This document shows positions 15,511 through 37,681 of a DNA stretch of 50,594 nt, piece after piece. Every line of letters starts with the position of its first letter. Position 1 is the first letter of the stretch. The notes below the pieces were generated by a model. That model was not told the origin of the DNA and ran no database searches. It worked only from the letters and a program-made list of their open reading frames with translations. The DNA comes from Pseudomonadota bacterium (GTDB lineage Bacteria; Desulfobacterota; Desulfobulbia; Desulfobulbales; SURF-16), in NCBI GenBank assembly GCA_018816555.1, contig JAHIVT010000116.1:1-50594 (forward strand), written 5' to 3'. The position numbers and the translations under genes were made by a program.

Positions 15511-15582
15511 ATGCGTAAGCTAATTTCAGGATTTGGCCCCATGTTTTCAGCCATCCAGGATGCAAAGACAGGTATATGCTGA
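15511..15582 (+). CDS. Possible 23-codon leader ORF overlapping the next gene's start
   Basis: ATG at 15511 follows a good AGGATGATAAAG Shine-Dalgarno region and encodes 23 residues (begins MRKLISGFGPMF). Its stop TGA (15580-15582) lies 2 nt past the ATG of the large secreted protein (15576), so the frames overlap. This is the arrangement of a coupled leader peptide. No homology recognised. Confidence 0.3.
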   Translation: MRKLISGFGPMFSAIQDAKTGIC

Positions 15583-18011
15583 TCATGCGCTTATTCTGGC
15601 TGAAATCGTTCTTGACTGTTGTGTTGCTCCTCTCCCTTATTGCTACAGGCTGGGCGGGCGGCGCCATTGAGCGAACCCTGGAGGTGTTGGGGAAGGTTCC
15701 CGGGGTCACTGCAGAACAACTGGAACGCAGCAAGGAAATTATCGTAAAACTTGATTATACGAACATGAGGGTTTTCAGGGCATTATGCACTCTGCCTGAT
15801 ATGACCGCCCCTGAGGCCTTCAAACTGCTGCCTGGTCTTACCGGCGAGCCGATCAATTATGAGCATCTTTTGCTTTTTGAACAGTTCTGTACCCTGCCGG
15901 GAGTTGATCTGCCACTCGCCCTGCAGGCTCTCCAGGAAATAAAAGATCTGGATTACGTATCTGTATGGGCCGGAGTGAGTTTGTGCCGCAATTCCTCGCT
16001 TCATCCTGCCCAGGCCCTGTCCGCCATCCAGCGGCTGCGAGAAATAAATGATCCGGCCCGCTGGGCGGCCAAGGCCTTTTTTGAGATCAATGGTCAGATG
16101 GATGACAGCGTGATTCAGGGGCTCATGATTATCAGGGCTCTTTCCCCTGAGCAGTGTTGGGCCGTGGAGGCTAACAGCAAGATTGAGGCGATCACCGTGC
16201 AGCAGGCCTTGATGAATATGGCCGCCATCCGCATGATCACCCCTGATAACATCCTGACCGTCAAGGCCTTGCTTGCCCTGCCTGAAATGACAGGCGCTGA
16301 TGCCCACGCATGGCTGACCGGTTATTTCGTCAAACCGGAAACAGAGCATGATGCCGACTATCAAATGCTCTCTCCCAGGAAAAAGACGATACTGCTGAAG
16401 GCGTACCTCAATGCCTCGGATCATATTGTGCTGGTGCTCAATAATCTCCATTCCGTCACTAATCAGGAGGGTGATGAGATTTCAGATGCACAGCTTGCCT
16501 CATTTTCTTTTCAGCGTCTGGGTGCTTTTTTTACCCGATTCCCTCCTGAGACCAGAAGCCGGTTTGATGCCAGGTTTGCCAGCTTTGCCAAAAAAGGAGA
16601 TAAACATGGTGCCACCTCCTGCCTGCGCGAGGCTACTGCTTTCGCCCGCAAGGAGTCGGCCAAGAGGCTCAGTACTGCAAATATTTATGCCGTGATGACC
16701 AGGGTTTCCATCCTCTATGACAGCTCGTTTCGTCTTATTCTGATTTCGGAGCTGCAAAAAAGAATTGCCGCCGGTTATCAGGGCAGCCTGCTCCATTTTA
16801 TGCAGGCGGTTGATCCGGAAAATGTCAATGTCGCCAACTTTGTTTCCAGTCTCTCCCTGAAGGCCAGGCTTGCCATGTTCCTCCCTCCCAATGTGCAGGG
16901 GCAGGAAGACATTGTTGATCTGGTTACCGCCTCAGCATTCAAGGATGAAAACAGTCTGGTGCTTTTTGCCGCCACATTTGAAAAATTGCTGGATGGACTT
17001 CTGCCGGCCACCCGTGTTTTTCTCGTCGACAGCATGATTTCCCATGCCCGTGATGCAAGTATTTTCGCCCAGCAGATCAGAACCATCCTGCAGTATTACC
17101 TGGAAGGCAAACCTAAAGTGCTGGGTGCTGAAAATGGGGGACGTATCAGAGAGCTGCTGGTAAAATATGACGCCCCTCCTCTGACCAGCTACATCCGAAC
17201 TCCGTTTACAGAATGGTTGCAGGACGGGACGCTGAGCGGCCTGTCCGTTTTTCACGGCGACGATGATGGCCGCAGTTCATTTATTGCCTTTGGCAACCTG
17301 CTGTTAAACAAAGGATATCTCCCCCGGCCAAGTACAAAATTCAGGGCAAATCAGCCCAACAGTTTTGCCAGAGAGGAACTGGCAGGTTTTCTCATTCCGG
17401 TTACCCGCAAGCAAAACGGCAGCCTGGAGCGGCTTTTCCGGTTTCTCAAGGAAACGCCTCTTGTTGTCGACTTTGTGAAAACCGTCAACAATGTGCTGAT
17501 CTCGCACAGTGTCAGTGTTTTTTATAACGGCGACACCCAACAGAAATTGTTGGGTCAGTTCATTCTGGATGGGCACGAGATGTATGCTCCCCGTGGCCAC
17601 AGTTATTGGCTGAATGATCATATTCTCGATCCCCTGCAGAGTCTGATTAAATCAGAGAAGGTTAGCCCTGAGGAGCTGACAGCCAAACAGCGTTTTCTCA
17701 GCATAGGGGCCTGCGGCGGAATAAAGATTTACTCGGATCTCACCCAGGCGTTCTGTAACAAGCTGGATATGCTGGGAAGTCTTGGGGCAGGAAAAACAAC
17801 AATTAACAATCTGTATAACTTGTTTCTTTTTGAGACAATCGCCTCTGAACCGCAAATACCGACATGGAAGGAGATGGACCGTAAAAACGCCTTCATCTTT
17901 CGCGAGGATACGGATAAGGACTATCAGTTGCCCGGCGAACTTCCAGCCATGCTGTATAAAATTCTCGGGAAACGGAAGTGTTGGTTGAGACCGTTTGAGG
18001 CTGATCTTTAA
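15576..18011 (+). CDS. Large secreted protein with helical repeats and a possible caspase-like C-terminal domain
   Basis: 811 residues, not assigned to a named family. Signal peptide at about 1-27. Residues about 30-260 are a series of degenerate alpha-helical units of roughly 40 residues built on a pattern like ALxxLPxMTxxxAxxLL. The middle is helical. The C-terminal 170 residues read like an alternating beta/alpha domain: VSVFYNGDTQQK, then DGHEMYAPRGHSYW (His 667 and 675), then FLSIGACGGIKIY (Cys 713), then NLYNLFLFE. A His in RGHS about 40 residues before a Cys after a hydrophobic strand is the spacing of caspase/CHAT-type cysteine peptidases. This is a hypothesis; no peptidase has been shown. 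A second ATG at 15585 is possible. Confidence 0.7.
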   Translation: MLIMRLFWLKSFLTVVLLLSLIATGWAGGAIERTLEVLGKVPGVTAEQLERSKEIIVKLDYTNMRVFRALCTLPDMTAPEAFKLLPGLTGEPINYEHLLLFEQFCTLPGVDLPLALQALQEIKDLDYVSVWAGVSLCRNSSLHPAQALSAIQRLREINDPARWAAKAFFEINGQMDDSVIQGLMIIRALSPEQCWAVEANSKIEAITVQQALMNMAAIRMITPDNILTVKALLALPEMTGADAHAWLTGYFVKPETEHDADYQMLSPRKKTILLKAYLNASDHIVLVLNNLHSVTNQEGDEISDAQLASFSFQRLGAFFTRFPPETRSRFDARFASFAKKGDKHGATSCLREATAFARKESAKRLSTANIYAVMTRVSILYDSSFRLILISELQKRIAAGYQGSLLHFMQAVDPENVNVANFVSSLSLKARLAMFLPPNVQGQEDIVDLVTASAFKDENSLVLFAATFEKLLDGLLPATRVFLVDSMISHARDASIFAQQIRTILQYYLEGKPKVLGAENGGRIRELLVKYDAPPLTSYIRTPFTEWLQDGTLSGLSVFHGDDDGRSSFIAFGNLLLNKGYLPRPSTKFRANQPNSFAREELAGFLIPVTRKQNGSLERLFRFLKETPLVVDFVKTVNNVLISHSVSVFYNGDTQQKLLGQFILDGHEMYAPRGHSYWLNDHILDPLQSLIKSEKVSPEELTAKQRFLSIGACGGIKIYSDLTQAFCNKLDMLGSLGAGKTTINNLYNLFLFETIASEPQIPTWKEMDRKNAFIFREDTDKDYQLPGELPAMLYKILGKRKCWLRPFEADL

Positions 18012-18062: not shown

Positions 18063-18842
18063 CTAATTGTATGTTTTGTTGATTTTCCTCTGGTTTTTGG
18101 CAGTTTCCGTGTAGTCTGGGGCGCAGACATATTTTTTTCCTACCACATCGATTTGTGGCGGCATTTTGGTCTTCTCGAAATAGTCATATCCTTCCTTTAG
18201 ATTCTTCCAGAAGCTCAACCAATTGGAATTCTTGTGTTTTCTCATGTTCGCCTCAGTCATTCTGAAGGGGAATATGTGAACGCGGAAAAATCTCTGGCCG
18301 TTGCGCAGGGCCTCTTGGGCCAGGGTGTATATTTCTTCTATCCTGCTGTCTGTCATGGCGAAGCAGCCTACGGAAATACAGTCCCCGTGAATCATCAGGG
18401 CGCTGCCGGTTCTACCGTGCAGTTTGTCGTAGGTGTTGGGAAAACCGATGTCAAAGGAGAGATGATAATGGCTGTTGGGATTGAGCTGTCGTTCGCTTAC
18501 TGAATAAAAACCTTCCGGGCTTTGTTCGTCCCCTTCTCTAAGTTTAGGCCCTAACTTTCCGGATAAACTGCATATTCTATATGTCTTAAAGAGTTGGTAT
18601 TCCTCGTCCTGCTGTACCCACAATTCAAGTTCCTGGGACTCCTTGAAGATTCTGATAAAGATAGGGTTGCCCAGCTCAACGCCCAGCTCGCTCAGCTCCA
18701 TCTCAAGCATAGGAGCAACTCTATTGCACACGGACATTGATGTTTCACTGGTCAGGATTTCTGCCTGAGCAGGGAAAATTGCAAAACAGACCAACAGTGC
18801 GGTGAGAACTGGCAGCAGCCAAGTACGATTGAGTATTTTCAT
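18063..18842 (-). CDS. L,D-transpeptidase-fold (YkuD) protein of the YafK type
   Basis: 259 residues with a signal peptide ending at AQAE (about 28). The YkuD-type catalytic motif is present as HGDCISVGCFAMTD: His of HG, then SxGC with the nucleophilic Cys, as in YafK. The preceding SPEGFYSV and HLSFDIGFPN strands are also typical. YafK (DpaA) of E. coli cuts the bond between peptidoglycan and Braun lipoprotein; whether this enzyme cuts or forms such links here is unknown. Convergent with the large secreted protein gene. Confidence 0.88.
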   Translation of the reverse strand: MKILNRTWLLPVLTALLVCFAIFPAQAEILTSETSMSVCNRVAPMLEMELSELGVELGNPIFIRIFKESQELELWVQQDEEYQLFKTYRICSLSGKLGPKLREGDEQSPEGFYSVSERQLNPNSHYHLSFDIGFPNTYDKLHGRTGSALMIHGDCISVGCFAMTDSRIEEIYTLAQEALRNGQRFFRVHIFPFRMTEANMRKHKNSNWLSFWKNLKEGYDYFEKTKMPPQIDVVGKKYVCAPDYTETAKNQRKINKTYN

Positions 18843-35353: not shown

Positions 35354-37681
35354 TCAGTTTTTCTCGTTTTCTTTCCACATCGGCCCTTTTGCCGTGTCGA
35401 TCACGGTGATGCCCTGTTCTGCCAGCTTGATGCGAACATCGTCCGCCTTGGCCCAGTCCTTTTCTTTCCGAGCCTTTTCCCGCTCCTGGATCAGCTTATC
35501 GATCTCCGGCGCCAGTGGGCACTCCTCAAGTTTCAGGACATGGAAAACCGAGTCGATTCTTTCAAGGGTTTCCTTGATGTACTGTTTCTGGTCGCGGTCG
35601 AGCTGCCCGTCATTGATGATGGGGTTCACTTTTTTGATGAAATCGAACAGGCTGCCAAAGGCCTTGGACACGTTCATGTCATCATCCATGGCGGCCTGGA
35701 AGCTTTCTTCCATTTCGGTGACATAGGCTGCCACTTTCGGATGGGGCAGGTCCGGCGGCAGGCACTGGATTTTGCGAGTAAATTCATCAAGCCGTCTCAG
35801 GCTTGCCCTGGCCGCATCGATTTTCTTGTAGGAAAAGTTGATGGGTTTGCGGTAATGGTTGCGGATCATGAAAAAACGTATTTCCCGGGGACTATAGCCC
35901 TGTTCGACCAGCTGCCGCAGGGTGATGACATTATTGTTGTCCAGGCTCATTTTTTTGCCGTCCACCAGCAGCAGTTCGCTGTGTATCCAGAACCGTGCCA
36001 GGGGTTTGCCGGTCAGGCTTTCGGCTATGGCGTTTTCATTTTCATGGTGCGGGAAGATGAGATCGCGGCCGCTGGTGTGGATATCCATGGTGTCGCCCAG
36101 ATAATGCAGGGTCATGGCGGCGCATTCAATGTGCCAGCCAGGCCGCATGTTGCCCCGGTCGGTCTGAAAGAAAATACCGCTTTTCAGCTCGGCCAGGGTT
36201 GACCGTTTCATCAGGGTGAAATCCAGCGGGTTGTTTTTATCGTAATTATCCAGGTCAACGGTCTTTCCCACCTGGATTTTGTCCAGCGGCACCCTGGAAA
36301 GCCTGCCGTAATTCTTGAATTTGCTGATGTCGAAATAGACCGAGCCGTGCTGCTCATAGGCGCACCCTTTATGGACCAGCTCATGGGCAATGTTGATCAT
36401 CTCATCAACATGGTCCGAGGCGCGGGGATAGCCGGTGGCCTTTTTTACCCCCAGGGCCTCGATTTCCTTCATGTACTCGCTGATATAGTATTCGGTGAAT
36501 TCTTTCAGCGGTTGGCCCGCCTTGGCTGCGCCGGTGATGGTGTTGTCATCAAGGTCGGTAAAATTCATGTAAAAGTGGACATTGTAGCCCTTGTTGAGCA
36601 GGAGCCGGTGGATAAGATCCGCCACGATGAATCGTCGGCAGTGGGCCAGGTTGGTCTGCTCATAGGCGGTGGGGCCGCAGGCGTAAAAGGTCACTCTGTT
36701 GGGTGAAAGGGGCTGAAAAATTTCCTTTTTACGGTTCAGTGAGTTGAAAAAGCGCAAGCCGGTTGTTCGTGTCTTTTTTTCTTTCTTACGGGTGAACAGC
36801 TCAGTGCTCAGATATTTGTCGCCGCTGTCCGGCAGGATGACGACAATTACCCCCTCTTCGAGCTGTTCCGCCACCGTCAGGGCGGCATAGAGGGCCGCGC
36901 CGGAACTCATGCCGGCAAAAATACCTTCCTTTCTGGCCAGCATCCTGGCGTGACGGAAGGCCTCTTCGTCCGGAATATTGATGATCTGGTAGGGTTTGCT
37001 TTTGTTGAAAATTCCCGGCTTATAGGACTCTTTCATGTTCTTGAGCCCCTGGATTTTATGGCCGAGAAAGGGCTCCACCGCCGTTACCCGTACTTCAGGA
37101 TGGTTGGCGGTGAAATAGTGGCACAGGCCCATCACCGTACCTGACGTGCCCAAGGTAGCCACCACATCGGTTACTCTGCCGCCGGTCTGCTCCCAGATTT
37201 CCGGCCCGGTTGTTCTGACATGGGCCATCCAGTTGGCATCATTATTAAACTGATCGGCGAGAAAAAACTTGTCCGGATGTTCACGGGCCATGGCATAGGC
37301 TTTTTCAATGGCCCCGTCCGTGCCCCTTTTGCCCGGTGTCAAGAGGATTTCCGCCCCGTACGCCTCCATGATCTTGCGGCGTTCAATGCTGGCGGATTCA
37401 GGCATGATCAGCTGGCAACGGTATCCTTTTATTGCGCAGACCATGGAAAGGCCGATGCCGGTGTTGCCGCTGGTCGCCTCCAGCACTATTTTGTCAGGGG
37501 TCAGTTCCCCGGTTTTTTCCGCTGTCTCGATCATTGACAGGGCAACCCGATCCTTTACAGAGCCGCCCGGATTACCTGCCTCGAGTTTGGCGTAGATGGT
37601 GATGTTTTTATGGGGGTTCAACCGGTTGATCGGCACGATTTTCGTGTTACCGATCAGATCAAGAATATTTTTATATTCCAT
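35354..37681 (-). CDS. Fusion protein: cysteine synthase (CysK) domain plus cysteinyl-tRNA synthetase (CysRS) domain
   Basis: 775 residues in one frame. Residues 1-300 are a PLP-dependent O-acetylserine sulfhydrylase: NPGGSVKDRVA with PLP Lys43, the TSGNTG loop at 70-75, GTSGT, SGDKYLST. Residues about 309-775 are a class I cysteinyl-tRNA synthetase with zinc ligands Cys335, Cys520, His545 and Glu549 in place (YACGPT, GWHIEC, FPHHENE). The synthetase signatures are altered: HIGH is NLAH (344-347), with only the last His kept, and KMSKS is KMSLD (577-581). The C-terminal anticodon-binding part (KARKEKDWAKADDVR) is present. It would join synthesis of cysteine to its charging on tRNA. Whether the CysRS half is active, and whether a stand-alone cysS exists, is unknown. 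Confidence 0.93.
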   Translation of the reverse strand: MEYKNILDLIGNTKIVPINRLNPHKNITIYAKLEAGNPGGSVKDRVALSMIETAEKTGELTPDKIVLEATSGNTGIGLSMVCAIKGYRCQLIMPESASIERRKIMEAYGAEILLTPGKRGTDGAIEKAYAMAREHPDKFFLADQFNNDANWMAHVRTTGPEIWEQTGGRVTDVVATLGTSGTVMGLCHYFTANHPEVRVTAVEPFLGHKIQGLKNMKESYKPGIFNKSKPYQIINIPDEEAFRHARMLARKEGIFAGMSSGAALYAALTVAEQLEEGVIVVILPDSGDKYLSTELFTRKKEKKTRTTGLRFFNSLNRKKEIFQPLSPNRVTFYACGPTAYEQTNLAHCRRFIVADLIHRLLLNKGYNVHFYMNFTDLDDNTITGAAKAGQPLKEFTEYYISEYMKEIEALGVKKATGYPRASDHVDEMINIAHELVHKGCAYEQHGSVYFDISKFKNYGRLSRVPLDKIQVGKTVDLDNYDKNNPLDFTLMKRSTLAELKSGIFFQTDRGNMRPGWHIECAAMTLHYLGDTMDIHTSGRDLIFPHHENENAIAESLTGKPLARFWIHSELLLVDGKKMSLDNNNVITLRQLVEQGYSPREIRFFMIRNHYRKPINFSYKKIDAARASLRRLDEFTRKIQCLPPDLPHPKVAAYVTEMEESFQAAMDDDMNVSKAFGSLFDFIKKVNPIINDGQLDRDQKQYIKETLERIDSVFHVLKLEECPLAPEIDKLIQEREKARKEKDWAKADDVRIKLAEQGITVIDTAKGPMWKENEKN

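Follow-up and report, generated by a model that had tools for sequence, protein, structure and literature searches.

The open reading frame at positions 15576..18011 (+ strand, ATG start, TAA stop included) of the 50,594-nucleotide stretch of DNA analyzed here, which we call the window, encodes an 811-residue protein of a new sequence family, probably with a caspase-like fold and a layout like that of separase or TPR-CHAT. We consider it somewhat better than an even bet that the product is an exported cysteine peptidase that has the caspase/haemoglobinase fold, forms its own sequence family, cleaves after arginine or lysine under the control of a helical solenoid, and has a housekeeping role. 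The caspase-like reading is the best available, and it is built on predicted structure and an invariant His–Cys dyad, not on sequence relationship. The first-pass annotation had already suggested a caspase-like domain behind helical repeats. The predicted fold and the dyad speak for that suggestion, whereas Foldseek, the profile comparisons, and a His-Ser motif where classical members have His-Gly speak against it.

A conserved gene of the Desulfobulbales

Because homologues are full-length down to 33% identity and dN is well below dS, 15576-18011 is a real gene under purifying selection. Against the closest relative, dN was 0.055 and dS 0.336 (dN/dS about 0.16), and against the next relative the values were 0.10 and 0.53 (about 0.19). 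Close relatives occur in two named records, at 82% identity in a Desulfurivibrio MAG and at 89% in an unclassified one; given where Desulfurivibrio is classified, this would put the window in the Desulfobulbales. Within its own genome the protein is the only match at E ≤ 0.001, the second (E 0.4) being at chance level. Export is predicted, in agreement with the earlier description of a large secreted protein: residues 1-27 (15576..15656, + strand) form a signal-peptide-like hydrophobic segment, helical from 2 to 25 in the model, and such a segment is present in 66 of 69 rows of the homologue alignment. The signal peptide would be cleaved near residue 27.

Of 257 genomes from the order Desulfobulbales searched with a profile of 19 sequences (A1), 136 carry the gene. 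They represent 29 of 69 genera and all fall into three families (f1, f11, and f12). There was one match in 124 of these genomes and two partial matches in 12. Ten of the 12 hold mostly complementary pieces, as expected of contig ends or frame breaks, and in G112 and G220 the second piece is short and overlaps with the first. A search at class level, which likewise covered 257 genomes, recovered the gene in 135 of them by the domain profile. Nine f1 genomes, from genera g2, g4, g5, and g8, are without it. Among 395 genomes sampled across the phylum, the gene was present in 12, all Desulfobulbales, and the domain profile gave two further weak matches (E 0.03 and 0.08). Beyond the phylum, the search consisted of one peptide-pattern scan of GTDB contigs, which found close relatives only. 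Collections of plasmids, phages, and viral contigs, as well as PADLOC and PHROGs, gave no match at the settings used, and we rejected a mobile-element reading on these grounds.

The surroundings of the gene differ between families. In f1, the neighbor is a YkuD-domain gene oriented convergently, both in the window and at eight of the nine other f1 loci; at the ninth, the contig continues for about 1 kb beyond the gene. The YkuD-domain protein of the window (18063-18842, − strand) has a signal-like N-terminus and an IHGDC...SVGC motif that we take to resemble YafK/DpaA. In f11 and f12, the gene is followed at 42 of 51 loci (in 50 genomes, as L076 and L110 come from one genome) by three genes of the same orientation, which from their sequences we presume to be holA, clpS, and clpA. 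The other eight f11/f12 genomes comprise seven from genera g44 and g45 and one whose contig ends 135 bases past the gene (L080). Gene order that is stable within families would fit vertical descent. An operon reading was set aside, and no function is drawn from the neighbors, because the neighborhood changes from one family to another.

Elsewhere in the window, a single open reading frame of 775 residues (35354-37681, − strand) joins a cysteine-synthase-like PLP domain (residues 7-285) to a cysteinyl-tRNA synthetase (322-766). Among the matches listed, 49 of 58 relatives match it in a single frame over at least 740 of the 775 residues, and many relatives also have separate matches to one or each half. 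We found no report of this fusion in the literature searched.

Predicted architecture and an invariant His–Cys pair

The full-length AlphaFold2 model (pLDDT 85, pTM 0.74, 19-row alignment) is helical between residues 30 and 540 and forms an alpha/beta domain between about 541 and 800, so that a solenoid precedes the caspase-like domain. The roughly 230 residues of N-terminal helical repeats noticed in the first-pass annotation are real: about seven repeats with a period of 32 occupy residues 28-266 (15657..16373, + strand). In the profile this period stands 3.9 SD above the mean over lags 8-74, with a harmonic at 64, and it agrees with the helix pairs of the model. A second all-helical region, which the annotation had not described, extends over residues 267-540 (16374..17195, + strand); a clear repeat period was looked for in its profile, and none was seen. 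It includes an N-x-x-H...E loop (residues 289-301, 16440-16478, + strand) in which N289, H292, and E301 are invariant. Model confidence is low there despite the conservation (pLDDT 57 for the block 291-300), and our guess is that the loop may act as an inhibitory or regulatory plug.

The alpha/beta domain, delimited by the AlphaFold2 models and structural alignment (residues 541-800, 17196..17975, + strand), was predicted with higher scores when folded alone (pLDDT 91, pTM 0.90, 69-row alignment). In the local numbering of that model, to which 535 is added to obtain protein numbering, the chain begins with a strand (17-24), the DDD cluster (27-29), and a helix (28-43), and continues with a strand (47-50) and two helices (61-75 and 81-91). 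Two strands (96-102 and 105-113) and a helix (117-129) follow, and then a strand (134-138) that leads to His140 and a helix (141-157). The domain goes on with a strand (171-175) that leads to Cys178, a helix (180-190), a strand (195-200), and a helix (206-222). DSSP placed both residues just after these consecutive strands, as clan CD requires, and the full-length model gives the same picture, with strand 669-673 before His675 and strand 707-710 before Cys713. The first-pass annotation was thus right that the His of RGHSYW and the Cys of FLSIGACGG adjoin predicted strands, and its estimate of about 40 residues between them is close to the actual 38. In caspases the dyad is located at the ends of strands 3 and 4, which in PmC11 become strands 5 and 6 owing to two additional strands (PMC4357240). 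Our domain resembles PmC11 in this respect, with the dyad after strands 5 and 6 and an extra strand pair first, a count that applies to the predicted model.

Conservation was read from an alignment of 70 rows with a median pairwise identity of 38% and a minimum of 26%. This alignment excludes a split copy in genome G002 (L010/L022), a copy in G107 that is missing about 30 residues (L109), and duplicate loci; L012, which is cut by a contig end, is among the 70 rows and absent from the 69-row alignment A2. The dyad was read in 72 of the 136 gene-carrying genomes. The proposed catalytic residues, His675 in RGHSYW (17598..17600, + strand) and Cys713 in S-[LIV]-G-[AS]-C-G-[GA] (17712..17714, + strand), are each present in 70/70 rows, as are the whole RGHSYW motif, E668, and the spacing of 38. 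Poor conservation of the two residues had been named beforehand as a result that would count against the caspase-like reading, and the alignment gave the opposite. Cys713 is the one invariant Cys among eight in the window protein, and His675 and His292 are the only invariant His among 14. The strict dyad, with His before Cys, is the order that clan CD requires. Given the invariant dyad and motifs, the fixed spacing, and the variability of most other Cys and His residues, the conservation pattern of His675, Cys713, and the surrounding loops is, as judged from aligned sequences, that of an active site. An acidic cluster that the earlier reading had not pointed out, D562-D563-D564 (17259..17267, + strand), lies between strand 1 and helix 1 and is proposed, by analogy with enzymes described in PMC4357240, to be a P1-binding pocket; D562 and D564 occur in 70/70 rows and D563 in 69/70.

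Other positions near the dyad can be compared with clan CD, in which Ala or Ser comes before the Cys and Gly adjoins the His. The residue before Cys713 is Ser in 61 rows and Ala in nine, and residue 711, two before it, is Gly in all 70. His675 is preceded by Gly and followed by Ser in every row, and the classical His-Gly is absent; both a Gly preceding the His and the His-Gly motif are among the clan CD signatures named in PMC12445089. Two of the copies left out of the alignment are disrupted. The gene in G002 (contig C47) is split over two frames, and L109 (contig C1 of G107) has the gap noted above; each keeps the His and the Cys, and the damage may be assembly error or decay.

Fold comparison and competing readings

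Sequence comparison connects the protein to no known family among those searched. Pfam has no family for it, and PF00656, PF03415, PF01364, and PF12770 were not among the families listed for 19 and 69 members; matches of one to three members varied between members and were taken as chance. Pfam-A contains a separase model, but no separase (C50) family was among those listed, and no separase chain appeared in the PDB sequence search, in which the domain profile had no match. Three marginal hits were dismissed: NCBIfam PPK2_rel_1 (E 0.026, 13.7 bits against a cut-off of 247.2) and the designed toroid 4yxx in the PDB (E 0.025), both ascribed to helical composition, and a PDB match to mitochondrial DAP3 (E 0.47), which is at chance level. 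With hhalign, the domain reached probabilities of 0.1-0.4% against CHAT, C11, C25, and C14 sets (0.1% for CHAT), the sets being small (19 C14, 8 C11, 6 C25, and 15 CHAT domains). At equal sets and settings, the control linked CHAT with C14 (94.6%), C25 with C14 (61.3%), CHAT with C25 (46.6%), and C11 with C14 (26.7%), and missed CHAT with C11 (0.2%) and C11 with C25 (0.1%). Since hhalign links four of the six known pairs and the domain to none, the domain, if it is a caspase-fold peptidase, is by sequence more distant from these families than they mostly are from one another. The protein should not be filed in C11, C14, C25, C50, or CHAT, as their sequence models do not match it. Its own genome also has CHAT, C25, and C14 caspase-fold matches (contigs C108, C175, C150, C121, and C135); there the domain profile matched only the 811-residue protein at E ≤ 10 and none of the CHAT, C25, or C14 proteins. 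In the literature that we searched on Desulfobulbales and caspase, we found no report of such a protein.

Structural comparison was divided. Foldseek returned no match at E ≤ 0.001 for the full model or the domain alone, and a search of viral structures with the full model was equally negative at this threshold. With the domain as query, GTPase-like chains ranked first (best E 1.6e-3), and no caspase-fold title was among the best 50 matches. A second look with VIA-align covered Foldseek's top 1000 chains. The tool warns that Z under 8 may reflect a common arrangement, and we counted 9.2, 9.0, and 8.5 as support and the others as weak. For the full model we considered rows that start no earlier than residue 425 and extend beyond 737, and the best four in the domain region are all caspase-fold peptidases: C. 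elegans separase (Z 9.0, rmsd 3.3, 163 aligned), human separase (Z 8.5, rmsd 3.5, 168 aligned), SAVED-CHAT (Z 7.8, rmsd 3.6, 163 aligned), and RgpB (Z 7.4, rmsd 3.9, 173 aligned). The scores of 7.8 and 7.4 do not stand apart from those of unrelated folds (7.2 and 7.1), and three importin rows with Z 7.6-7.8 begin in the helical part and extend into the domain. Entry 7y85, the Craspase TPR-CHAT, had Z 6.9; 7zoq, a "CRISPR effector in complex with a caspase regulator" with the same Z, was left uncounted because the matching chain is ambiguous. For the domain alone, SAVED-CHAT was first among the chains compared (Z 9.2, rmsd 3.5, 165 aligned), with the next rows at 7.8, and by title it is the one caspase-fold peptidase among the best 50. 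None of C11, C13, C14, and C80 was among the VIA rows shown, and they may be present further down.

An unlikely alternative is that the domain has another alpha/beta fold, Rossmann-like or GTPase-like, in which the His and Cys have a structural role or bind a ligand or metal. The Foldseek ranking fits this, as does the absence of a profile link to the tested caspase-fold families while the control worked, and in VIA, rows 2 to 50 for the domain are mostly GTPases and periplasmic-binding or receptor domains (Z 6.6-7.8). The window protein even carries a P-loop-like GSLGAGKT (residues 734-741, 17775-17798, + strand) in a strand-loop-helix at 730-757. However, this string lies between the seventh strand and the next helix, whereas the P-loop of GTPases comes after the first strand. 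It is found in only 8/70 rows, and we rejected it as a family feature; Gly737 and Gly739 are invariant, and residue 740 is Lys in 36/70. SAVED-CHAT also stands 1.4 Z above the next row, separases lead for the full model, and in the predicted models DDDG, RGHSYW, and SxGxC each occupy a loop that follows a strand, a position typical of active sites. A predicted fold without the caspase sheet was the other outcome that the first-pass annotation said would undo its reading. The prediction did not undo it: strand order and the placement of His and Cys agree with the caspase fold, and CHAT and separase have the best VIA scores there, while Foldseek prefers GTPases.

Two further readings accept the caspase fold and question the chemistry. 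The Cys might serve amide transfer, ligation, or the handling of sulfane sulfur in sulfide-rich surroundings, which we rate as improbable, marginally more so than a different fold. An invariant Cys and His would suit any thiol chemistry, His-Ser instead of His-Gly departs from classical members, and a MAG of Desulfurivibrio, a sulfur-metabolizing genus, is among the two nearest named records. Nevertheless, the best structural rows are peptidases, and because no neighboring gene is kept across all families, there is no pointer to a sulfur pathway. The protein could also be a pseudo-enzyme, an exported scaffold that binds partners and has lost its activity. Non-catalytic caspase-fold domains do exist, such as the pseudo-caspase CHAT1 described for Csx29 (PMC10028731), but a pseudo-enzyme would not be expected to keep both putative catalytic residues and their loops wholly invariant at a median identity of 38%, and we regard this reading as very improbable.

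Proposed mechanism and known systems compared

In the peptidase reading that we prefer, the protein would be exported by its N-terminal signal peptide, of which the hydrophobic segment is observed and the cleavage presumed. His675 and Cys713, modeled after two consecutive strands, would come into contact as a catalytic dyad, with Cys713 attacking the peptide bond. The loop that joins strand 1 to helix 1 carries D562-D564, which would line the S1 pocket and direct cutting after Arg or Lys. We suggest this P1 preference because residues with such a role sit at a similar place in two known enzymes: in caspase-7, Arg87 of loop L1 serves to recognize Asp, and in MALT1, an enzyme that cleaves after Arg, the residue is Asp365 of helix 1 (PMC4357240). 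The same source describes basic P1 specificity as the commonest in clan CD. MALT1 has, in addition, Asp462 in loop L4 and Glu500 in L5 (PMC4357240), and the invariant Gly at residue 711, where MALT1 has the L4 Asp, counts against the idea. The helical part of 500 residues may bind a substrate or regulator and gate the active site, as in TPR-CHAT (Csx29). The likely role would be housekeeping, the enzyme cutting at specific sites in the periplasm or on the cell surface; we found no substrate or partner gene for the protein.

A bolder version, to which we give tentative credence well short of that for the peptidase reading as a whole, is that this is a new clan CD family outside the cytoplasm, a solenoid-gated Arg/Lys peptidase with an essential or central job in envelope processing. 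Bacterial proteins that combine helical repeats with a caspase-fold domain are known mainly as intracellular defense proteins. If this one is exported and kept across three families, the layout would also be used for routine envelope biology. Clan CD would gain one more sequence family, and the protein would offer a compact system for studying the control of a caspase-type active site by a helical solenoid.

Several known systems share part of this design. Separases (MEROPS C50) have a helical ARM/HEAT-like N-terminus, a C-terminal caspase-like domain, and a His–Cys dyad (PMC4626109), and two of them gave Z 9.0 and 8.5 to the model of the 811-residue protein, to which Pfam and PDB sequence searches found no sequence relation. 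The bacterial peptidases gingipain R (C25) and clostripain/PmC11 (C11) have the caspase fold and Arg or Lys specificity (PMC4357240), and RgpB reached Z 7.4 to the full model, but no C25 or C11 profile matches the protein. YabG, likened here by description, is a precedent: this His–Cys peptidase has been proposed as a member of clan CD although its sequence does not resemble those of the others, but it is a sporulation peptidase with a spacing of 46 (His161/Cys207 and His172/Cys218) (PMC12445089). TPR-CHAT/Csx29 and SAVED-CHAT are prokaryotic and have a helical-repeat or sensor part before the caspase-fold domain, as our protein does, but Pfam CHAT does not match it and the CHAT profile set gave the 0.1% mentioned above. 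Csx29 is linked to CRISPR, its helical-repeat region relays activation to the CHAT2 active site, and its dyad (H615/C658) has a spacing of 43 (PMC10028731), near the 38 found here.

Cellular location and domain content also separate these systems from the predicted exported protein. Separases are eukaryotic, intracellular, and larger, and gingipain R and clostripain/PmC11 are not known to have a helical-repeat N-terminus. The CHAT peptidases, TPR-CHAT and SAVED-CHAT, are intracellular and CRISPR-linked.
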